Below are positions 10,429 to 32,042 of a DNA stretch of 36,453 nt, in pieces; within the stretch, counting starts at the first letter, position 1; each line of letters begins with the position of its first letter. A program made the position numbers and the translations under genes. Location: assembly GCA_029553295.1 (NCBI GenBank), contig JAKPCK010000045.1:1-36453 (forward strand). The letters are read 5' to 3'. The notes below the pieces were generated by a model, which was not told the DNA's origin, made no database searches, and saw only the letters and a program-made list of their open reading frames with translations. Source of the stretch: Deltaproteobacteria bacterium. GTDB lineage: Bacteria > Desulfobacterota > Syntrophorhabdia > Syntrophorhabdales > Syntrophorhabdaceae.

Positions 10429-12387
10429 CTATTTCTCTGTAAAAGTAACGACCTCTTTCTCTTCAAGCTCTATTATCTCTGAAGGCTGATCTTTGCCCAG
10501 TTCTGTAACCTCGTATATCTCAACAGGTTTACTTTTGCCCTTAACCGCTACCTTATCCAGGCCCCTTACCCTAACATGCCATATTGTCCCGTCTTTTATC
10601 TTGTCCCTTATCTTTTCAAAGGTAGACTCTGTGATTATGATATTTGCGTTGTATTTCCTTGTCAGGCCCTCAACCCTGGCACCGAGGTTGACATTATCCC
10701 CTATTACAGTATAGTCCATCTTTTTGCCCTCGGCACCTATATTACCCACAATGGCCTCACCGGTATTTATGCCGTAGCCTGCGTCAAGGGGTGTCTTGCC
10801 CTCAGAGACCCATTTCTCCTGGAGTTCCTTTAACCTCCTTACCATATGGAGTGCACACTTTACAGCGAGTTCAGCATGATTCTCCTGTGGTATAGGTGCA
10901 TTCCAGAATGCTACTATCTCATCGCCAACGAACTTGTCCAGTGTCCCATCCCATTTGAATATGATATTGGTCATCTCACCTAAATATTCGTTTAGTATCT
11001 TGACTACCTCTTCAGGCCCGTGTTTCTCAGAGAATGTGGTAAAGCCCCTTATATCGGAAAAAAATACGGTTATCTCCTTTCTCTCACCACCAAGCTTGGC
11101 AAGGTTAGGGTTTTTTATAAGCTCGTTGACCACTTTTTCTGTTACATAGCTTGAGAACATGCCCCTGATACGCTTTGCATATCGCTCCTCTGTGGCATAC
11201 CTGTATGCCGTTATAATAAAATATATAACGAGTATATTGCTTGTGGAATAGCTCAAGGTTATCCAGATGTTTTTCCAGAAGAAAAAATAATATGCCACGA
11301 GGGAAAGGACAGCAATAAATACAAATGCGCTGATAGCGCCGTATACTGCCTTGAGCCTTACGATGAGGATGGCGAAGAGGATACCGGTCAACAGTATAAT
11401 GATGATATTTGTCAGGTTCGTTATCTTGTATATAAAATCCTTTTTCAGGATAGAGGCTATTACACTCGCATGTTTTTCTATACCGGGCATGGCTGCTGAT
11501 GTTGGTGTGACCCTGAGGTCATATATACCCACTGCTGTTGCACCTACAAGGATTATCTTATCCTTTATATCTGATGGCTTTACCTTTTCTTCCAGTATAT
11601 CAACAACGGATATATATGGAAATGTACCCTCTGGTCCATAATAATGCACAAGTATCCTGCCCCAGAAATCAGTGGGTATGAGGTTTTCACCAAGCTGAAC
11701 CCCTTGGGTTGCCCTTAGTGTCATGGCCTCTATGGGCAATCCGAGATACATCCTTGCTGTCTGCAGGTCAATAGAGGGGAATAACTCGCCGTCAAACTCT
11801 ACAGCCATAATCTCCCACCTTAAGACCCCGTCCCTGTCCGGTATCATGTTTATAAAACCCACTTTCTTTGATGCATCCATTAGTTCTTTTACAGGGATAA
11901 GGATACCCCGGGCGCTGATGGGTGGAAATATCTTAAAGTAGTCTGAGTTTCTGATTATGGGGAAGGCATTATCATAGAGGACATCTTCTGTAATCTTTGT
12001 TTTTTTGCCTTTAAAATCAAATACAACAGGGAGTATTACATTCCCTGCATTGGCTATGGACCTTGCAAGGACATCATCACCCGCTGAAGGCTCGCTGAAG
12101 ATTATATCCATCATAATGACCCTTGCACCCATTGATTTAAGTCGGTCAATGAGCTGGGCCACCCTTGACCTATCCCATGGCCACCTGCCCAGTTTTTCAA
12201 GGCTTCTGTCGTCTATGGCAGCGATGGCAATCTCAGGAGGGGGCGTAGTCTTTCCCCTGACCTTGTATCTTGTGTCATATATGAGGAGTTCAAGGTGTTC
12301 TAAGGGGAGTAATTTTATGATGGCGAAGAAGGAGAATAATATGGATACAGCAATGCCTATTACTATGGGTATGATTATTTTCTTCAT
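10429..12387 (-). CDS. CHASE2-domain membrane adenylate cyclase
   Basis: A 652-aa receptor cyclase. A TM helix (4-24) is followed by an extracytoplasmic CHASE2 sensor (about 30-310, with AIDDRSLEKLGRWPWDR), three TM helices (about 322-395) and a class III cyclase domain from about 437. D445 (FFSDIRGF) and D489 (KFVGDE) bind metal, and N567 and R571 (DNVNLGAR) are the transition-state pair. K485 with T560 is the Lys/Thr pair of CyaC-type adenylate cyclases, so cAMP is the expected product. The ligand of CHASE2 is not known. A charged tail follows the cyclase. It lies downstream of the MetE-like gene by 43 nt. Confidence 0.88.
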   Translation of the reverse strand: MKKIIIPIVIGIAVSILFSFFAIIKLLPLEHLELLIYDTRYKVRGKTTPPPEIAIAAIDDRSLEKLGRWPWDRSRVAQLIDRLKSMGARVIMMDIIFSEPSAGDDVLARSIANAGNVILPVVFDFKGKKTKITEDVLYDNAFPIIRNSDYFKIFPPISARGILIPVKELMDASKKVGFINMIPDRDGVLRWEIMAVEFDGELFPSIDLQTARMYLGLPIEAMTLRATQGVQLGENLIPTDFWGRILVHYYGPEGTFPYISVVDILEEKVKPSDIKDKIILVGATAVGIYDLRVTPTSAAMPGIEKHASVIASILKKDFIYKITNLTNIIIILLTGILFAILIVRLKAVYGAISAFVFIAVLSLVAYYFFFWKNIWITLSYSTSNILVIYFIITAYRYATEERYAKRIRGMFSSYVTEKVVNELIKNPNLAKLGGERKEITVFFSDIRGFTTFSEKHGPEEVVKILNEYLGEMTNIIFKWDGTLDKFVGDEIVAFWNAPIPQENHAELAVKCALHMVRRLKELQEKWVSEGKTPLDAGYGINTGEAIVGNIGAEGKKMDYTVIGDNVNLGARVEGLTRKYNANIIITESTFEKIRDKIKDGTIWHVRVRGLDKVAVKGKSKPVEIYEVTELGKDQPSEIIELEEKEVVTFTEK

Positions 12388-17512: not shown

Positions 17513-17815
17513 ATGCAAAGGGTATACATATATGCAACAAGACAGGAGGTCAGATATAGAGGTACTCGTTCGACCCTGATATTTATATTATCCTTTCTTT
17601 GCATTGCCCTTTTTTATTTTATCGTCAGGGGGGCATGCATTAACTTGAGGGAGGACCTGATTGCCCAGCTCTCCAGAGAAAGACACGCCCTTGAGACAAA
17701 TAGCAGGCTAAAGATAGAGTTATCAGGGATTACCAAGAAGAGGTATCTTGAATTTAAGGCAAAGGAGCTCGGGCTTAAAAAGCCAAAGGAAGAGGAGGTT
17801 TTGGTATTGAGATGA
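17513..17815 (+). CDS. ftsL: FtsL-like divisome protein
   Basis: At 100 aa, it has a basic N-terminal tail, one TM helix (about 22-42, LIFILSFLCIALFYFIV) and a periplasmic coiled-coil-like helix (LREDLIAQLSRERHALET). It ends with FKAKELGLKKPKEEEV, like the FtsL/DivIC ending in which a short helix precedes a beta strand. FtsL is poorly conserved, so size, topology and the slot after rsmH carry the call. FtsL joins FtsB and FtsQ to activate septal wall synthesis. The start follows a G-rich ribosome site, and the end overlaps the next gene as ATGA. Confidence 0.75.
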   Translation: MQRVYIYATRQEVRYRGTRSTLIFILSFLCIALFYFIVRGACINLREDLIAQLSRERHALETNSRLKIELSGITKKRYLEFKAKELGLKKPKEEEVLVLR

Positions 17816-20157: not shown

Positions 20158-21502
20158 TGAGGTTTTAGAGGCGGTGAAGGGTGAACCCCTTGTTGTAAAC
20201 AGGACATCCTTTACCGATATATCCACTGATACAAGGTCTATAGATAAAGGGGAACTCTTTATACCCCTTAAGGGCAAAAACTACGATGGCCATAGCTTTA
20301 TCCCACAGGCCCTTGAGTTATCCGGCGGTGGTTGTCTCTGCGAGAGAAACCAAGCTGGTATGGTAGCTGATGTGAGAGAGACTGTTATACTGGTAGATGA
20401 TACATTAAAGGCCCTTGCCAACCTTGCAACATATAAGAGAAAAAGGACAAAGGGACAGTTCATTGCCATAACCGGTAGCAATGGCAAGACAACCACTAAA
20501 GAGATACTTGTGGCCATGATAAAAAAGACATTTTCTGTGCATTACAATGAAAAGAATTACAACAACATAATAGGTGTATCTAGGAGTATCCTCTCTATAA
20601 ATGGGGACCATGATTTCTATGTCTTTGAGGTGGGGACAAATAGTCGCGGGGAGATAAGGACGCTTGCAGCTATTTTAGAGCCGGAGATATCCATCATTAC
20701 CAATATAAATCCATCTCACCTTGAAGGCCTTATGGATTTAAAGGGTGTCCTCGAGGAAAAGCTCGACCTTTTCTACGGGACAAAAAAAGGTGGTTCTGTA
20801 TTTATCAATGTGGATGACCCATATATAATCTCCTCATATATAGATGAAAACCACATAAAATGCGAATATGCCATAGACAGGGATGCCTTATACAGGCTTA
20901 TCATAGATGAAGACCTGGGATGGGAGGGTTTTGGTTTAACCTTGATTTTTCCCAAGGTGAACTTTAAGGCAAGGACAAGGCTTTTAGGTAAACACAATCT
21001 CTATAATATACTTGCCGCAGCATCCATTGCCGACAGGATTGGGATAGGCAGGTCTTCCATAAAGGAGACAATAGAGGAGTTTGACTACTATGATAAGCGA
21101 TTCAGGCCTGTCAAGTCCAAAAGAGGCTACCTTGTTGTGGACGATACATACAATGCAAACCCCTCTTCTATGGAATGGGCTATAAAGACTGTTGCAGGGC
21201 TTCCATGCAGGGGTAACAGGATTGCCATAATCGGGGATATGAAGGAACTCGGGGAAATGACTGAGTTCTATCACAGGGAACTGGGCAGGTTATTAAGACA
21301 GAGCAACATCAAAAAGACCTTCCTTATCGGTGAATCAGTTGCCTATACCTTCGAAGAGATAGGGGATGAAAGGGCAGAGTTATTTAAAGATAGGAAATTG
21401 CTTATTGAATCTGCTGCAAGGGTCATAAGGATGGATGATGTAGTCCTTGTTAAGGGTTCAAGGGCAGCAAGGATGGAAGAGATAGTGGAGGCATTGACCT
21501 GA
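20144..21502 (+). CDS. murF: UDP-MurNAc-tripeptide D-Ala-D-Ala ligase MurF
   Basis: Adds the D-Ala-D-Ala dipeptide to finish the UDP-MurNAc pentapeptide. At 452 aa it has the N-terminal substrate domain ([18 protein letters not shown]), P-loop [12 protein letters not shown] (109-120), [19 protein letters not shown] and the C-terminal [17 protein letters not shown] and [11 protein letters not shown]. The 14-nt overlap with murE and 1-nt overlap with mraY show tight coupling. Confidence 0.96.
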
Positions 21503-22578
21503 TGTTGTATCATATACTTTTTCCATTGCATGAAAAGTTTTCTTTATTCAATGTATTCAGGTATATCACCTTCAGGACTGTCCTGGCCATCTTAACTGCA
21601 CTCATCATCAGTTTTATTCTCACACCGTATATAATAAGAAAGTTCCATGAATGGAAGGTCAGAAGCGACAAGAGGGAGGATGTCCCGGACAGGCATATAA
21701 CAAAGCAGGGCACGCCCACCATGGGCGGGTTTGTTATCCTAATCTCCACCATTATACCCACGCTTTTGTGGTCCGATTTGACAAACTATTATATCTGGCT
21801 TGTTACATTTACGCTTTTGTCCTTTGGCGGTGTAGGTTTTGCCGATGACTTAAAGAAACTTAGGGGTAAAAATGGCAAGGGTATATCTGGTAAGACCAAG
21901 ATGTCCCTCCAGATATTTTTTTCAGTTATAATAAGCGTCCTTCTATATCTCAGGCCTGGTTTTATAACAGAGCTTACTGTCCCGTTTTTTAAGAATATTA
22001 CACCTCACCTAGGCATATTCTACATCTTCCTCTCCATATTCATAATAGTAGGGACTTCCAATGCTGTCAACCTCACAGACGGCCTTGACGGACTTGCCAT
22101 AGGCCCAGTGATTACCGTATGCGGTACATTTATGCTCTTTTCCTATCTTGCTGGAAATATCAAATTCGCCCAGTACCTTCAGATATTCTATGTAAAAGGT
22201 GCAGGGGAGCTTGCCATACTCTGCGGGGCTATGCTCGGTGCTGGTATAGGTTTTCTATGGTATAATGCATACCCTGCTGAACTTTTCATGGGGGATACAG
22301 GCTCTTTATCCCTGGGTGCAACCCTTGCCACCATAGCAGTAATAATAAAGCAGGAGATACTGCTCTTGATAGTAGGCGGTATATTTGTCCTGGAGACAGC
22401 ATCTGTTATAATACAGGTCCTGTCATTCAAATGGAGGGGCAAGAGGGTCTTCAGGATGGCACCCATACACCATCATTATGAACTAAAGGGCTGGAACGAG
22501 GAGAAGATAGTGGTGAGGTTCTGGATTGTCTCGATTATTTTAGCGCTATTGGCCTTAAGTACCCTTAAACTGAGGTGA
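21502..22578 (+). CDS. mraY: Phospho-N-acetylmuramoyl-pentapeptide transferase MraY
   Basis: The membrane enzyme that moves phospho-MurNAc-pentapeptide to undecaprenyl phosphate to give lipid I. At 358 aa with about 10 TM helices, it has [50 protein letters not shown] and the His-rich loop [11 protein letters not shown]. The ATG shares its A with the murF stop (TGATG). murD follows after 8 nt. Confidence 0.97.
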
Positions 22579-22586
22579 CTTTATAG

Positions 22587-23912
22587 ATGGAGATACCTGA
22601 TAGGATACTCATAGTCGGGCTTGGTAAGACAGGGGTTTCGGTGGCGAGATTTCTGGGTGGGCAGGGCAAGGCCATCACCGTAACAGATACTAAAACTGAG
22701 GCAGAGCTCTCCCATGCCATAGCTGAACTAAAAGGTGTGGAATTTAAAGGCAGATTCGGCGGTCACAATATGGATGACTTCATAAACCAAGACATGATAG
22801 TTGTGAGCCCGGGTGTGGATATAGAGATGCCATACATAAAAGAGGCTGTAAAAAGGGGTATCAGGGTAATAGGGGAGATAGAACTTGCCTCAGCATTTGT
22901 GGACAGCCCCATTATAGCCATTACAGGGACAAACGGCAAGACTACTGTTACATCCCTTATGGGAGAGATCTTCCAGGCTGCCTTCGAATACGTCTTTGTG
23001 GGAGGCAATATAGGCAATCCCCTTGTAAATTATGTCATGGATGATAAAAAAGCCGATTATGTCATACTCGAGATAAGTAGCTTTCAGCTTGAGACAATTC
23101 ATAGATTCCACCCCCATATATCCGTCCTCCTTAATATCACAGAAGACCATCTGGACAGGTACAGAAGTTTCGATGAATACAGGGATGCCAAGCTCAGGAT
23201 ATTTGAAAATCAATCCGGAGATGATTTTGCCATCCTGAATAAGAATATAGAGCTAAATAGACCCATCAAGGCAAAAAAACTATATTTCTCTGCATACGAT
23301 GTTGTAGAAGAGGGTGCATATTACAGGGACAATAAGATGTATATAAGGTTTAATGGCAAGGAATATACCTACAGAAGAGATATAAGCCCCCTTCCAGGGA
23401 CACACAATACAGAGAATCTCCTCGTTGTACTTCTTGCTGCTCATATAGCCGGGATAGAAAGAGGTGTCATAGAAGAGGTGCTCAAGGGTTTCATGGGCCT
23501 CCCCCATAGGGTTGAATATGTAAGGGAGATAAACGGGGTGAGATTTATCAATGACTCCAAGGCAACAAATGTAGATGCCACAAAGAGGGCATTACAGGGT
23601 ATAAATGACAATATCGTGCTTATAGCCGGTGGAAAGGATAAAGGCGGTAGTTACAGGGTTATGATGGATGAGTTAAAAAAGGTAAAGGCACTCATTCTTA
23701 TTGGAGAGGCAAGAAAGAGGATTATTGGAGAACTTGCCGGGCATGTGGTCATATATGAGGCAGCGGATCTGGATGATGCTGTGAAAAGAGCAATGGATGT
23801 GGCAAAAAAAGGAGATACTGTGCTTTTTTCCCCTATGTGCAGTAGCTTTGATATGTTCAGGGATTATAAGGAGAGGGGAGAGATATTCAAGAAGATCGTG
23901 TGGGCTATATGA
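22587..23912 (+). CDS. murD: UDP-MurNAc-L-Ala:D-Glu ligase MurD
   Basis: Adds D-glutamate to UDP-MurNAc-L-Ala. At 441 aa it has a Rossmann-like start (RILIVGLGKTGVSVARFL), SPGVD, the P-loop ITGTNGKTT (112-120), ILEISSFQLET, NITEDHLDRY, FINDSKATNVDAT and FSPMCSSFDMFRDYKERG at the end, all standard for MurD. Its stop overlaps the next start as ATGA. Confidence 0.97.
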   Translation: MEIPDRILIVGLGKTGVSVARFLGGQGKAITVTDTKTEAELSHAIAELKGVEFKGRFGGHNMDDFINQDMIVVSPGVDIEMPYIKEAVKRGIRVIGEIELASAFVDSPIIAITGTNGKTTVTSLMGEIFQAAFEYVFVGGNIGNPLVNYVMDDKKADYVILEISSFQLETIHRFHPHISVLLNITEDHLDRYRSFDEYRDAKLRIFENQSGDDFAILNKNIELNRPIKAKKLYFSAYDVVEEGAYYRDNKMYIRFNGKEYTYRRDISPLPGTHNTENLLVVLLAAHIAGIERGVIEEVLKGFMGLPHRVEYVREINGVRFINDSKATNVDATKRALQGINDNIVLIAGGKDKGGSYRVMMDELKKVKALILIGEARKRIIGELAGHVVIYEAADLDDAVKRAMDVAKKGDTVLFSPMCSSFDMFRDYKERGEIFKKIVWAI

Positions 23913-24697
23913 AAAAGGCTGCTATCTTACTCCTCACATCCCTACTCTTATACGGTATGGTCAGGGAGTTGAACTCTATAAAGATTGCCTTGATATGTGT
24001 TGGTCTGATAGGGTCATACATTGTCTGTCGTATACCCGGTAGATACATAATGTCCATGAAATACCCCTTGATTGTCATACAACTTGCCATAACAGCCCTA
24101 TTCCTTGTATTTCCCCATCTGTCCATCAAGGAGCATGGTGATTTCTTTGTTGCCTTTATGGCCATCTACAGCATTATGTTTTATCTCATCTCCATTAAAG
24201 AGGGTCAAAAGGGGCTCTTTAAAGAGGTGGTTGCCATATCAATCCTTTATTTTTCTGCATTTTTTAATCTCCTCATGGTAGGCAAGCCTGTGCTTATCAT
24301 CTCCATTGCCCTGCCCGTGATGCTCTATCTATTCATAATAGGGCACAACAAGGTTATCCTTTTTATCCTGGGATATACGCTCTTTATTGTTTTGGCTCTT
24401 ATAATGAGAAAGGTGTCCATAATCGGTGCAGGTATAAACTTCAGTAGTGATTTGCATAGATACATACTCCTTTTATCGCCCCTTTTTCTTTTGATATGGA
24501 GTTTTATCGGCCTTGTGAAAAAGACAGATTTTTTAAAGATAATCTCTTTTTTGGGCCTGATGTGTATCTCCATAGATATACTTATGGTGGTGGGCCTAAG
24601 GCTCTCCTGCGGCATAGTATATCAGCCTCTGGCAGCTATCCTGATTGTAGCCCCCATTGCCGGTATGATGATGAAGGCAGAGAAGGGAGGCTTATGA
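23909..24697 (+). CDS. About 10-TM membrane protein in the ftsW slot; not recognisably SEDS
   Basis: FtsW normally lies between murD and murG. This 262-aa protein (ATG 23909 overlapping the murD stop; a GTG at 23900 is possible) has 9-10 hydrophobic helices, the first at about 2-17 and the last near the C-terminus, joined by short loops. That helix number equals SEDS proteins, but FtsW is about 360-400 aa with a long periplasmic loop and conserved catalytic Asp. I find no SEDS motifs such as GGLFG, HTDFI or GEELG. It could be a shrunken, very divergent SEDS member, a lipid II handling protein, or something new. It also overlaps murG as ATGA, so it is locked into the operon. Confidence 0.7.
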   Translation: MKKAAILLLTSLLLYGMVRELNSIKIALICVGLIGSYIVCRIPGRYIMSMKYPLIVIQLAITALFLVFPHLSIKEHGDFFVAFMAIYSIMFYLISIKEGQKGLFKEVVAISILYFSAFFNLLMVGKPVLIISIALPVMLYLFIIGHNKVILFILGYTLFIVLALIMRKVSIIGAGINFSSDLHRYILLLSPLFLLIWSFIGLVKKTDFLKIISFLGLMCISIDILMVVGLRLSCGIVYQPLAAILIVAPIAGMMMKAEKGGL

Positions 24698-25764
24698 AGC
24701 TTTTTATTGCAGCAGGTGGAACAGGTGGCCATGTATTTCCTGGTATATCAGTGGCAGACAGGTTTACTGCCATGTCCCCTGACAATGAGGTGGTCTTCAT
24801 AGGGACAAAGACCGGTCTTGAGTCAAGGGCTGTGCCTCAGGCAGGATACAGGCTCTTGTGTGTAGATGCCCGTCAGTTTTCAGGCAGGAATCTGGCATAT
24901 AAACTGGTAACGGTAGCCAGCCTTGTAAAGGGTATCCATACCTGTTTGAGCTACATTAAAAAAGAAGACCCCCAGGCCATACTGGGCATGGGCGGGTTTG
25001 CATCCGTGCCCATGGTTATAGCAGGTTTTATACATGGGACCCCCATCTTTCTCCACGAACAGAATGTCCAGCCCGGTCTTGCCAACAGGATACTTGCCAA
25101 GTATGCAAGGACCATATTTATAAGCTTTGAGGATACAAGGCACTATCTCGGTAGTTCAAGGGTCATGCTTACCGGGAACCCCATAAGGGAATCTGTAAAG
25201 AAAAGGGATGTGGGATTGGGAGAGGGTGATTTCGGTATATTTGTATTTGGAGGAAGCAGGGGTGCAAGAAGCATAAATCAATCAGTGGTGGATATGCTGA
25301 ATTATTTAAATGAATACAGGGACAGGGTTATTGTATTCCATCAGACAGGGACAGAGGACTACGAAGGCGTGAAGGATATATACGATAGTTCGCAGATAAG
25401 GCACGAGGTCTTTGCATTTACAGACAACATGGCCCATTATTACAAGAACTCCCACGTTGTCATAGCAAGGGCAGGGGCAAGCACAATCTTTGAGCTTGCA
25501 TACTTCAAGAGGCCTGCTATCCTCATACCCTATCCTTATTCAGCAGGACAGCATCAGTGGAAGAATGCCCTTCAGGTGGAGAGGGCAGGTGGTGGTTATA
25601 TAATAGAGAATAGTGAGGCAAGCGGGGAGAGGCTTTTTTATGTCATCAAGAGGCTTATTGATGAACCGGAGCTATTGAAGAAGATGGGTGAAAATATAGG
25701 CAGGCTATATATAGAGGATGCAGAGGGACTTATCATAAAGGGGATAATAGATGGTATTTCATAA
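24694..25764 (+). CDS. murG: Lipid II synthase MurG
   Basis: A GT-B glycosyltransferase on the inner membrane face that adds GlcNAc to lipid I. At 356 aa it has GGTGGHVFPGI (8-18), GMGGFASVPMVIAG, HEQNVQPGLANR, FGGSRGARSIN and SHVVIARAGASTIFELA, then PYPYSAGQHQWKNA. The frame is open back to 24496, but ATG 24694 behind GGGAGG gives the family start and overlaps the preceding stop (ATGA). murC overlaps its end by 14 nt. Confidence 0.96.
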   Translation: MKLFIAAGGTGGHVFPGISVADRFTAMSPDNEVVFIGTKTGLESRAVPQAGYRLLCVDARQFSGRNLAYKLVTVASLVKGIHTCLSYIKKEDPQAILGMGGFASVPMVIAGFIHGTPIFLHEQNVQPGLANRILAKYARTIFISFEDTRHYLGSSRVMLTGNPIRESVKKRDVGLGEGDFGIFVFGGSRGARSINQSVVDMLNYLNEYRDRVIVFHQTGTEDYEGVKDIYDSSQIRHEVFAFTDNMAHYYKNSHVVIARAGASTIFELAYFKRPAILIPYPYSAGQHQWKNALQVERAGGGYIIENSEASGERLFYVIKRLIDEPELLKKMGENIGRLYIEDAEGLIIKGIIDGIS

Positions 25765-28037: not shown

Positions 28038-28931
28038 ATGAGGGATAAGAGAATTGGTGTCTTGATGGGTGGTATGTCATCGGAGAGGGAGATATCCCTG
28101 AAGAGCGGAAGGGCTGTCCTTGAGAGTCTTTTAAGGCAGGGCTATAATGCTGTAGGTATAGATGTGGACAGGGGCCTCATGGAGACCCTTAAAAAAGAAT
28201 CCATAGATATAGCCTTTATTGCCCTCCACGGCAGGTGGGGTGAAGATGGGACAGTCCAGGGCCTCCTTGAGACGGTGGGTATCCCCTATACAGGTTCAGG
28301 GGTATTAGGTTCTGCTGCTGCCCTGGATAAGGCAGCTATGAAGTATATCCTTAAAGGCGCCGGGGTCCCGACACCTGACTATAGGGTATACTATAAGAAA
28401 GATGCAATCCGATTCCCCATCCCTTTTGTAATCAAGCCAGCAAACGAGGGTTCTACCATAGGCATATCCATAGTGAGGGATAAGAAAGAGATAGAGGAAG
28501 CCTGTCAATGTGCATTCAGATACGACAAAAAGGTCCTGGTAGAGAGGTTCATAGAAGGTAGGGAGATAACTGTAGGTAAGATTGATGACATATCACTCCC
28601 CATAGTTGAGGTAAGACCAAAAAAAGGTTTTTATGACTTTGAGTCAAAATATACAGTAGGTATGACAGAATACATTGTCCCGGCAAAGCTCAACAAGACT
28701 ATTGAGAAAAGGGCATACAAGATAGCAGATGAGGTCTACAGGCTCTTTGAATTGTCTGGCTGTGCAAGGATAGATATGCTTATAGATGATGGCATCCCAA
28801 ATGTAATAGATATAAATACATCACCGGGCATGACAGAGACATCCCTTGTCCCAAAGGCATGGGGGTGTCTTGGAAAGGGCTTTGATGAGCTTATAGAGAA
28901 GATACTATCAGGGGCATCGTTGAAGATATGA
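28038..28931 (+). CDS. ddl: D-alanine-D-alanine ligase
   Basis: Makes the D-Ala-D-Ala used by MurF. It is a 297-aa ATP-grasp enzyme with VLMGGMSSEREISLKSG at the start, ALHGRWGEDGTVQGLLE, PYTGSGVLGSAAALDK, PFVIKPANEGSTIGIS and the metal/ATP end DINTSPGMTETSLVPKA. It belongs to the short DdlB-like group common in dcw clusters. GTATAAGGA is a modest ribosome site. ftsQ overlaps its stop as ATGA. Confidence 0.96.
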   Translation: MRDKRIGVLMGGMSSEREISLKSGRAVLESLLRQGYNAVGIDVDRGLMETLKKESIDIAFIALHGRWGEDGTVQGLLETVGIPYTGSGVLGSAAALDKAAMKYILKGAGVPTPDYRVYYKKDAIRFPIPFVIKPANEGSTIGISIVRDKKEIEEACQCAFRYDKKVLVERFIEGREITVGKIDDISLPIVEVRPKKGFYDFESKYTVGMTEYIVPAKLNKTIEKRAYKIADEVYRLFELSGCARIDMLIDDGIPNVIDINTSPGMTETSLVPKAWGCLGKGFDELIEKILSGASLKI

Positions 28932-29623
28932 AAAAAATACTCTATATACTTTTTATAACACCTATTTGTCTATTATCTATACTGACCCTTGTCTATCTGT
29001 TTTCCAGCGATGTCCCCATGTTTATAATAAAAAACATCAAGATTGTCGGTGTAAAACAGTTGAAGGACGCAGATGTTATGGGCAGAATATCACCTTATAT
29101 TAAAGACGGTGTATTGGATGCGCAAAAGATAAGGGAGGCAGTGCTTTCCCACCCCTTTGTATCTGATGTGAGGATAAAAAGGGTATACCCCTTCTCTGTG
29201 GTGATAGATATAAAGGAAAAGAGGCTTGCCGGATTATGGGTAGATAGTTCAGGGAATGTAATGATACTGGATGAACATGGAGAGCCATATAGGGGACTCT
29301 CTACAGGTGCAGCAAAAGATATGTTTATCATAAACACAAAGGATAGAAACAGCTTAAAAGACATATTGAAGGAGATAAACACCTGGATATCTGAAGGGCT
29401 TATAAAGAAAGAGGACATATCAGAGGTAGCCTTTAGAGACGGCAGCATAACCATCTTCCTTGTTCAGGAAGGTATAGAGATAGTCCTGGGAAAGGAAGAT
29501 CTGAAAAAGAGGCTGAAGAGGGCGATGGTTGTCCTGGAGGACGCAAAAAAGAGAGGTCTCCTGATTAAATGTATAGACGCCAGGTTTGAGAGGGGTGCCA
29601 TTATTCAGGAAAGGCAGGTGTAA
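28928..29623 (+). CDS. ftsQ: Cell division protein FtsQ
   Basis: At 231 aa, it has a short cytoplasmic tail, one TM helix (about 4-26), a POTRA domain (about 33-102: FIIKNIKIVGVKQLKDADVM ... HPFVSDVRIKRVYP) and a beta-rich domain (GLWVDSSGNVMILDEHGEPY). FtsQ holds FtsL and FtsB and links the early ring to the septal synthase. Its presence implies a classic divisome even though the ftsI and ftsW slots are odd. ftsA starts 2 nt after the stop. Confidence 0.9.
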   Translation: MKKILYILFITPICLLSILTLVYLFSSDVPMFIIKNIKIVGVKQLKDADVMGRISPYIKDGVLDAQKIREAVLSHPFVSDVRIKRVYPFSVVIDIKEKRLAGLWVDSSGNVMILDEHGEPYRGLSTGAAKDMFIINTKDRNSLKDILKEINTWISEGLIKKEDISEVAFRDGSITIFLVQEGIEIVLGKEDLKKRLKRAMVVLEDAKKRGLLIKCIDARFERGAIIQERQV

Positions 29624-29624
29624 T

Positions 29625-30869
29625 ATGGTAAGGGACGATGAAATGCTTGTAGGTCTTGACATTGGGACAACAAAGATATGTGTGGTTGTGGCAAAGGTGG
29701 CTGAGGGCAAGGTCAATATAGTGGGTATAGGTTCCCATCCATCCACAGGATTGAGAAAGGGCGTTGTCGTGAATATGGACAGCACTGTCAGTTCCATTAA
29801 AAAGGCTGTGGAAGAGGCAGAGCTGATGGCGGGCATAAAGATTGACAGTTGCATTGCCGGTATCTCTGGTGCCCATGTGAAGAGCTTTAACAGTAACGGG
29901 GTTGTGGCTGTAAAGGATAAAGAGGTCAGGGCTGATGATGTGGCAAGGGCTATAGATGCAGCCAAGGCAGTGGCCATACCCGCTGACAGGCAGGTCCTCC
30001 ATGTTATACCACAGGAGTTTATAATAGATGACCAGGACGGTATAAAAGACCCCATAGGGATTACAGGGGTGAGGCTTGAGGTTAAGGTGCATATAGTCAC
30101 AGGCAGTGTAGCCTCTGCCCAGAATATTATAAAGTGCTGCAGGCTTGCCGGATTAAATGTGGATGACATAGTGCTCAGCCAGATTGCATCTGCTGAGGCA
30201 ACGCTTTCACCAGAAGAGAAGGAGATCGGCGCAGCACTCATCGATATGGGGGGTGGGACAAGCGATATAGCTGTATTTGCCAATGGCAGCATAAAATATA
30301 CGGCTGTTTTGCCTTTTGGTGGCAACAACATAACAAACGATATAGCCATAGGCCTTAAGACCCCTCTTGAAGAGGCAGAGAAGATAAAAAAGAAGTTCGG
30401 CAGCGCCTTTTCAAGCATGATAGGGGAGAATGAGACCATAGAGGTCCCCAGCGTGGGCGGCAGAAAGCCCAGAACCTTAAAGAGAAAGACCCTTGCCGAT
30501 ATCATAGAGCCCAGGGTAGAAGAGATATGCACCATGTTGTACGAGGAGATTAAAAAATCAGGGGCAGAGAAGCTCTTGGCATCAGGGGTTATACTTACAG
30601 GGGGATGCGCAAACCTTGAGGGGATTGTGGAGCTTTCAGAAAATATATTCAATCTCCAGACGAGGATAGGATTTCCAACAGGTGTAGGGGGGCTCGTGGA
30701 TGTGGTGAATAACCCCATATATGCCACCGGGGTTGGGCTGTTGATATGTGGTTATAAGAATCCAGGGGTAAAGAAGTCTAAGTTTGAGAAGGGCAGGGCA
30801 ATAAAAAAGATATACACAGGCCCAAATATCCTGAAAAGGATGAAGGAATGGTTTAAAGAAATCTTTTAA
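29625..30869 (+). CDS. ftsA: Cell division protein FtsA
   Basis: An actin-fold ATPase that ties FtsZ to the membrane. At 414 aa it has MLVGLDIGTTKICVVVAKV (phosphate 1), GISGAHVKSFNSNG in the 1C domain, ALIDMGGGTSDIAVF (phosphate 2), VILTGGCANLEGI, and a C-terminal amphipathic helix (NILKRMKEWFKEIF), the membrane anchor. The frame is open to 29586 inside ftsQ; ATG 29625, just after the ftsQ stop and behind AGGCAGG, is the better start. ftsZ follows after 12 nt. Confidence 0.96.
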   Translation: MVRDDEMLVGLDIGTTKICVVVAKVAEGKVNIVGIGSHPSTGLRKGVVVNMDSTVSSIKKAVEEAELMAGIKIDSCIAGISGAHVKSFNSNGVVAVKDKEVRADDVARAIDAAKAVAIPADRQVLHVIPQEFIIDDQDGIKDPIGITGVRLEVKVHIVTGSVASAQNIIKCCRLAGLNVDDIVLSQIASAEATLSPEEKEIGAALIDMGGGTSDIAVFANGSIKYTAVLPFGGNNITNDIAIGLKTPLEEAEKIKKKFGSAFSSMIGENETIEVPSVGGRKPRTLKRKTLADIIEPRVEEICTMLYEEIKKSGAEKLLASGVILTGGCANLEGIVELSENIFNLQTRIGFPTGVGGLVDVVNNPIYATGVGLLICGYKNPGVKKSKFEKGRAIKKIYTGPNILKRMKEWFKEIF

Positions 30870-30881
30870 GGAGGTAAGAGG

Positions 30882-32042
30882 ATGCCAAACACATTTTATA
30901 TGGATGAAAGCGGTGGTTTTTCAGCAAAGTTAAAGGTAGTCGGTGTTGGTGGAGGTGGGTGTAATGCCTTGAATAACATGGTGGATGCCAATGTGAGAGG
31001 CGTTGAGTTTATAGCTGTCAATACTGACCTTAAGTCTCTGAATATGTGTAAGGCACCCATTAAGATACAGATAGGGAATAAACTGACAAGTGGTCTCGGG
31101 GCAGGCGCTGACCCTGAGGTGGGCAAAAAGGCCGCCCTTGAGGATGTGGAGAAGATCAAGGAACACCTGAAAGGTGCACATATGGTATTTATCACCTGTG
31201 GCCTTGGTGGAGGCACAGGGACAGGGGCATCACCTGTTATAGCAGAGATATCAAAGGAGCTTGGCTCCCTTACCGTTGCCATTGCCACAAAACCTTTTGC
31301 CTTTGAAGGAAAAGACAGGATGAGACAGGCAGAACAAGGTGTTGCCCAACTCAAGACAAGGGTGGATTCCTTAATCACCATTCCAAATCAGAGGCTGTTT
31401 TCCATAGGCGGTAAACACATGACCATTATAGAGGCATTCTTAAAGGCAGATGAGGTGCTTTTGAACGCTGTCCAGAGTATATCAGACCTTATAATAGGGT
31501 CAGGCCATGTGGTTGTGGATTTTGCAGATGTAAAGACAATAATGAGCGAGAGGGGTATGGCAATAATGGGCATTGGAGTTGCAACCGGGGAGAACAGGGC
31601 AAGGGAGGCAGCACAGAAGGCTATATCGAGCCCGCTTCTCGAGGATATATCCATTCACGGTGCAAGGGGTGTCCTTATAAATGTTACTGGAGATACCAAT
31701 ATGACCCTCCATGAGGTAAATGAGGCATCAACCCTTATACAGGAACAGGCCCATGAGGATGCAAAGATAATATGGGGTCTTGTGTATGACGATACAATGG
31801 ATGGTGCCATGAGGATCACAGTCATAGCCACAGGTTTTGAGGAGAAGGCTATTGTAGACGAAGAACCTATAATAAAGCCTGTAAAACATACGGGCAGGCT
31901 TTTTCGAGACCTTGATGAGCCGCCCTTTATAAGAAAAAACATAACCATAGATTATAAGGAGATTAAATCAAAGAGCGATAACCTTGATATAGATGATGAG
32001 AGATACGATGTGCCGACTTTCTTAAGAAAGCAGGCAGACTAA
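30882..32042 (+). CDS. ftsZ: Cell division GTPase FtsZ
   Basis: The tubulin homologue that forms the Z ring. At 386 aa it has KVVGVGGGGCNALNNMV, the tubulin signature GLGGGTGTGASPVIAE, TIPNQRL, DFADVKTIM (T7 loop region, with the catalytic Asp) and the C-terminal peptide DVPTFLRKQ that binds FtsA. TAAGGAGGT precedes the ATG. Last gene of the cluster; the next gene is convergent. Confidence 0.98.
   Translation: MPNTFYMDESGGFSAKLKVVGVGGGGCNALNNMVDANVRGVEFIAVNTDLKSLNMCKAPIKIQIGNKLTSGLGAGADPEVGKKAALEDVEKIKEHLKGAHMVFITCGLGGGTGTGASPVIAEISKELGSLTVAIATKPFAFEGKDRMRQAEQGVAQLKTRVDSLITIPNQRLFSIGGKHMTIIEAFLKADEVLLNAVQSISDLIIGSGHVVVDFADVKTIMSERGMAIMGIGVATGENRAREAAQKAISSPLLEDISIHGARGVLINVTGDTNMTLHEVNEASTLIQEQAHEDAKIIWGLVYDDTMDGAMRITVIATGFEEKAIVDEEPIIKPVKHTGRLFRDLDEPPFIRKNITIDYKEIKSKSDNLDIDDERYDVPTFLRKQAD

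Follow-up and report, generated by a model that had tools for sequence, protein, structure and literature searches.

Nearly all bacteria are considered to build the septal wall with FtsW and FtsI, and the two enzymes also count as drug targets. In the window analyzed here (contig C112, a 36,453-nucleotide stretch of a 2.25-Mb draft genome that is 96.8% complete), the two slots of these enzymes in the division and cell wall (dcw) cluster hold short proteins: a 262-amino-acid (aa) membrane protein, here called X, in the ftsW slot between murD and murG, and a 296-aa protein in the ftsI slot (Table 1). An ATGA at 23909-23912 forms the murD stop and the X start, and another at 24694-24697 forms the X stop and the murG start. 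The original prediction, made from the DNA letters, described X in these terms, with about ten helices, and the open reading frame (ORF), the junctions and the hydrophobicity profile all agree with it. It also held that both activities were missing from their slots, and indeed the catalytic motifs are absent from both products. We followed the two genes through 46 draft genomes of the order Syntrophorhabdales (completeness up to 100%), which belongs to the Thermodesulfobacteriota, a phylum with Gram-negative-type envelopes.

Table 1. Division and wall genes of the window, the two slot genes first
Feature	Position	Strand	Remark
X (probable shrunken FtsW without the catalytic loop), ftsW slot, 262 aa, ten predicted helices	23909..24697	+	
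ftsI-slot protein (shrunken FtsI), 296 aa	17812..18702	+	slot between ftsL and murE
ftsL-position protein, 100 aa, conserved in the order	17513..17815	+	weak DivIC/FtsL-type matches in several relatives
mraY	21502..22578	+	PF00953
murD	22587..23912	+	ATGA overlap with X
murG	24694..25764	+	ATGA overlap with X
ftsQ, kept	28928..29623	+	POTRA_1 and FtsQ_DivIB_C
ftsA and ftsZ, kept	29625..32042	+	blastp of related loci

In the 15 members compared, the ftsI-slot protein has a single transmembrane (TM) helix joined by a variable linker to a conserved middle; a PASTA domain closes the C terminus (found in 14 of the 15), as it does in outgroup FtsI. About half a transpeptidase domain lies at residues ~87–203. 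When the 15 slot proteins were aligned by HHalign with 21 FtsI proteins from the same phylum, the PASTA domain matched at E 3.3e-11, residues 89–215 matched the transpeptidase domain from EPGSTFK onward at E 0.0011, and the TM helix matched at E 0.074, collinear with the other two alignments. The middle region alone scored 38.1, whereas none of 400 column shuffles exceeded 27.2 and the reversed region gave 17.5. An AlphaFold model built from three sequences (mean predicted local distance difference test score, pLDDT, 49.9) is reasonably confident only at residues ~96–190. Searched with residues 87–203 of this model, Foldseek returned E. coli PBP3 as the top match (E 9.9e-4), and all 50 matches listed were penicillin-binding proteins (PBPs) or class D beta-lactamases, the latter because they share the PBP fold. 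Comparison of residues 86–203 with a PBP3-type domain by VIA gave a best Z of 11.2, with a root-mean-square deviation of 2.7 over 118 aligned residues.

The active site, on the other hand, has been dismantled. The EPGSxxK of FtsI reads EPMFFIS in the window, and none of the 15 members keeps both the Ser and the Lys of the SxxK site; the SxN region is D-x-x-G in all 15, and no KTG was found aligned in the members. The pedestal domain PBP_dimer (PF03717) likewise gave no match in the 15 proteins, which have the variable linker instead. Because the profile and the fold match FtsI/PBP3 and SxxK, SxN and KTG are lost, we conclude, on the grounds of sequence and modeled fold, that the ftsI-slot protein is a shortened, catalytically dead descendant of FtsI. 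The idea that both enzymes had been replaced by a substitute pair therefore does not hold for this gene.

As for X, its hydrophobicity profile shows ten segments, and counts of lysine and arginine per loop in 41 aligned sequences (~11.5 in the putative cytoplasmic loops versus ~4.4 in the outer loops) fit a predicted N-in/C-in topology. The longest outer loop, between TM7 and TM8 (167–183, 17 residues), stands at the position of the catalytic loop in shape, elongation, division and sporulation (SEDS) proteins. No conserved acidic residue was found in this or any other outer loop of the 41-sequence alignment, and so the catalytic aspartate that would mark X as a merely divergent FtsW is not seen there. 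The SEDS family PF01098 gave no match at E<=10 for the window's X or 20 relatives, in keeping with the earlier claim that X has no SEDS motif. A 'TDF' at residues 206–208 was rejected as a catalytic motif and is accidental, since Asp207 occurs in 4 of the 15 alignment rows listed, outside the conserved columns, in a loop predicted to be cytoplasmic. X did not match PF03023 (MurJ) and had no meaningful match in NCBIfam, and a search of PDB sequences gave nothing useful for either the X or the ftsI-slot family.

Could X nonetheless be catalytic, as a pared-down lipid II polymerase or flippase whose active site has moved? Lys105, Asn120 and Asp223 are invariant in all 41 sequences, Asp223 being the sole invariant acidic residue, and any of the three might serve in such a site. 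We consider this highly improbable, as Lys105 falls in a predicted cytoplasmic loop, Asp223 lies within TM9, the outer loops hold no conserved acid and the ftsI-slot partner has no catalytic motif at all. Furthermore, MurJ is present at E<=0.001 in 45 of the 46 genomes (on contig C37 in the genome of the window), so no flippase is missing, and the flippase role was dropped. It is very unlikely that X is an active SEDS polymerase.

Against a profile of 32 SEDS sequences, X scored 30.5 by HHalign, a value equaled once in a set of 300 shuffles and twice in another of 600. A test with 60 SEDS sequences, added after that result was known and excluding two of the ten non-dcw outgroup SEDS sequences as possible misread ORFs, gave 32.9 (probability 21.5%), matched by none of 400 shuffles. 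Residues 24–110 of X align to SEDS 61–160, in the correct register for TM2–TM4; as controls, unrelated membrane proteins scored 16–24 and a true divergent SEDS 274. These comparisons lend moderate support to the conclusion that X is probably a descendant of FtsW that has lost its outer loops, including the one with the catalytic aspartate. Alternatively, an unrelated ten-helix protein might have replaced FtsW after ftsI decayed, with the likeness at TM2–TM4 being convergent hydrophobic patterning. The lack of any family match in Pfam, NCBIfam or PDB sequences and a C-terminal half without SEDS signal favor such a replacement, which we judge rather unlikely because the SEDS match is in register and was not reached by shuffles with the deepest profile, because X shares the slot, TM number and orientation of FtsW, and because the partner in the ftsI slot can be shown to be a decayed FtsI. 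The original prediction thus holds in part for this slot: a working FtsW is absent, as proposed, whereas an unrelated substitute is a less likely identity for X than a shortened FtsW.

The two genes are found throughout the order. X matched in 46 of 46 genomes at E<=0.1 and in 45 at E<=1e-14; in G038 (66% complete) the match covered only 76 residues (E 0.006). Among 53 genomes of the phylum's other orders, there were only two marginal matches (E 0.01 and 0.07), and in a profile search of 148 phylum genomes the strong matches were confined to five members of the order, with marginal ones (E 0.02–0.6) in six of the 143 non-order genomes. The ftsI-slot protein is likewise present in all 46, although split in two in G024 and G040. 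The two genes lie on the same contig in 41 of the 46, mostly ~6 kb apart (coordinates compared by eye), and the suggestion that they travel together is borne out by the presence of both across the order. By blastp with the window's genes, the dcw order of their neighbors recurs in related loci, and both slots are occupied by this pair, in standard dcw order, in 14 order loci with wider context. Two loci differ in detail. In L052 (G041:C56, 9118-11337), X directly follows mraY with no murD-like ORF between them, unlike in the other members. In L056 (G014:C61, 2882-5927), two overlapping frames share the sequence of X, and murD is not separately called; the 776-aa frame upstream matches MraY at about twice the MraY length and is possibly a fused mraY-murD.

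Both genes are under selection. X is 74% identical in the nearest named relative (L046, Syntrophorhabdaceae bacterium SKW74), and the ratio of nonsynonymous to synonymous substitution rates (dN/dS) against this relative was 0.19 for X, 0.18 for the ftsI-slot gene and 0.05–0.17 for the seven other genes measured, with murD at 0.11 and murG at 0.09; the comparison with L047 was mostly saturated. The values of 0.18–0.19 versus 0.05–0.17 indicate that the two genes evolve faster than their neighbors yet under clear constraint. Being clear in 45 of the 46 genomes and having a dN/dS of 0.19, X is a real gene under selection. These results bear on an explanation by ordinary decay or assembly artefact, in which the slots hold pseudogenes and true ftsW and ftsI lie elsewhere, in DNA that was not assembled. 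In its favor, the genomes are drafts, X is split in G014, and an ftsW-like fragment occurs on a separate contig of G041; against it, the same arrangement occurs in 46 genomes, dN/dS is 0.18–0.19, and the neighbors of the G041 fragment include murC and murG that are far less order-like than those of other members. We regard this explanation as extremely improbable.

The fragment in question (L058, G041:C54) lies at a contig end in the order ftsW-like fragment, murG, murC, murB. With murC and murG so unlike those of the order and murB order-like, the contig looks foreign or chimeric, and the fragment was dropped as a true ftsW.

Which synthases, then, remain in these genomes? In a census in which some matches are fragments of one gene, PF01098 matched once in 43 order genomes and twice in the remaining three of the 46 (G012, G020 and G041); among 53 genomes of other orders, 39 had two, 10 had one, 3 had none and 1 had three. 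By eye, the main SEDS match adjoins a transpeptidase match in 42 of the 46 order genomes, and in the other four, G001, G020, G029 and G037, it is found at the end of a contig or close to it. In G000, the SEDS–transpeptidase pair (RodA-PBP2) is followed by MreD (below the Pfam cut-off) and MreC. The genome search proposed with the original prediction turned up a single SEDS match, a RodA beside PBP2, MreD and MreC. In a 45-sequence tree, a RodA clade of 19 sequences (support 1.0) leaves out all 21 dcw-encoded FtsW; nested within it, also with support 1.0, is a clade made up of the SEDS proteins from 11 order genomes, and two of the ten non-dcw outgroup SEDS, possibly misread ORFs, fall outside the RodA clade. 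The HTDF motif is intact in all 11. From these sequence comparisons, we conclude that the sole SEDS protein of most order genomes is RodA and that RodA-PBP2 is kept. Neither FtsW nor another FtsI-type transpeptidase was found in the draft genome of the window, and the four transpeptidase matches of G000 are PBP2 (the one class B PBP) and three class A PBPs. All 46 order genomes have transglycosylase (PF00912) matches, some of them in short, monofunctional-type frames. G040 (97% complete) has one PF00912 match (in a 614-aa frame), one SEDS and two transpeptidase matches, which limits the candidates for the septal synthase to the class A PBP or RodA-PBP2.

Two genomes of one genus carry a second, divergent SEDS–PBP pair (L059, G012:C51, and L060, G020:C91). 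By eye, the G020 pair adjoins a Ser/Thr protein kinase-like frame, and the G012 pair lies near sigma/anti-sigma-like ORFs. These second SEDS proteins are not FtsW-like on the tree and were dropped as FtsW.

Could a dead FtsW-FtsI pair still serve division? As FtsW and FtsI activity appears to be gone across the order, another synthase must build the division wall. We think it probable that purifying selection keeps the dead FtsW and FtsI descendants, which became fixed before Syntrophorhabdales radiated, as a non-enzymatic platform and that a class A PBP or, less likely, RodA-PBP2 builds the septum. X and the ftsI-slot protein would form a membrane-plus-periplasm platform on FtsQLB, itself without enzymatic activity, and this platform would recruit or gate the enzyme that builds the septum; the likeliest candidate for that role, with Clostridioides difficile as the parallel, is a bifunctional class A PBP. 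The ftsI-slot protein still has its TM helix, PASTA and a portion of the transpeptidase fold, and FtsQ and FtsB/DivIC-type proteins are kept, the latter in 44 of the 46 genomes. In the known complex, as described in the relevant passages of PMC7614612, the FtsI TM helix packs on TM8-TM9 of FtsW, and FtsL contacts the pedestal and transpeptidase domains of FtsI. We put forward more tentatively the narrower idea that the pair lost all activity in the ancestor of the order and was kept as an obligatory platform relaying the divisome activation signal to a class A PBP.

It is also conceivable, if unlikely, that RodA-PBP2 serves both elongation and septation and that the dead pair is an adaptor bringing it to the Z-ring. 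This would keep the dead pair as we describe it and differ only in the working enzyme. RodA-PBP2 is the only SEDS/class B PBP pair in most of the order, and its RodA keeps the catalytic HTDF motif. On the other hand, in G000 it sits with MreC and MreD, an elongation setting, and in the published precedent for FtsWI loss, division uses a class A PBP and elongation uses RodA-PBP2 (relevant passages of PMC10693644).

Several results weigh against the platform model and the descent of X from FtsW. The likeness of X to SEDS is weak in absolute terms, at the HHalign probability given above, and is confined to TM2-TM4; the C-terminal half alone gave no signal against SEDS (E 0.52), three of 900 shuffles equaled the score with the shallower profile, and unrelated membrane proteins scored up to 24. 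The AlphaFold model of X, built from three sequences (window, L046 and L047), is unusable (pLDDT 41.8). A Foldseek search with it returned nothing under E 1, and a chain of a RodA-PBP2 complex at rank 3 (E 2.7, probability 0.09) was not counted as evidence. The old docking surface for FtsL is partly gone, since the pedestal is missing. We infer the interaction of X with the ftsI-slot protein, the septal localization of the pair and the identity of the septal synthase.

Among the neighboring genes, ftsA and ftsZ are 83% and 93% identical in the relative L047 and 58% and 49% identical in the outgroup L067. On the minus strand, at 10429-12387, lies a 652-aa protein that, by eye, resembles a CHASE2-type sensor fused to an adenylate/guanylate cyclase domain.

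An order that has FtsZ, FtsA and FtsQ with a dead FtsWI pair would offer a natural separation of the enzymatic and structural roles of FtsWI, so far approached with mutants. It would also be a second lineage, unrelated to clostridia, where another synthase must make the septum, and, if the platform model is true, division signaling would be uncoupled from the FtsWI enzyme. The literature searched, with preprints and most subscription journals outside its scope, held no report of a conserved dead FtsWI pair and no paper joining pseudoenzyme, FtsW and FtsI; where Syntrophorhabd- literature names ftsW, the relevant passages concern syntrophy-marker domains. None of the papers found for degenerate, inactive or truncated FtsW or FtsI bears a title on such a pair, and a paper naming FtsW, FtsI, the dcw cluster and Deltaproteobacteria deals with cable bacteria.

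Compared with the FtsW-FtsI synthase, the pair occupies the same dcw slots, X resembles FtsW in its ten TM helices, N-in/C-in orientation and TM2-TM4 profile, and the ftsI-slot protein resembles FtsI in its TM helix, partial transpeptidase fold and C-terminal PASTA. It differs in having no catalytic-Asp loop, no SxxK, SxN or KTG and no pedestal, and in its size (262 and 296 aa versus ~366–400 and 585–713 aa in most of 21 outgroup genomes). Dominant-negative FtsW mutants, in which changes in outer loops ECL2-ECL5 or in D297 abolish function (relevant passages of PMC8765783), are likewise inactivated through the outer loops or D297; however, they are laboratory point mutants in a host that needs FtsW, whereas X is evolved, conserved and shortened.

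The closest precedent, by analogy, is C. difficile, which, according to the relevant passages of PMC10693644, divides without FtsW and FtsI and uses the class A PBP1 as its septal synthase. In both cases, no canonical FtsW/FtsI serves vegetative division, and RodA-PBP2 and a class A PBP remain. On the other hand, C. difficile has an active, dcw-encoded SpoVE/SpoVD pair for sporulation and lacks FtsA (same source), whereas in Syntrophorhabdales, a member of the Thermodesulfobacteriota, the dcw pair is dead, with no known sporulation role, and FtsA is kept. The gene content of class A PBP-driven division, with no FtsW/FtsI and a class A PBP present, is found in the draft genomes. Division without FtsWI is already known, and an order-wide conserved dead FtsWI pair would be the new part.
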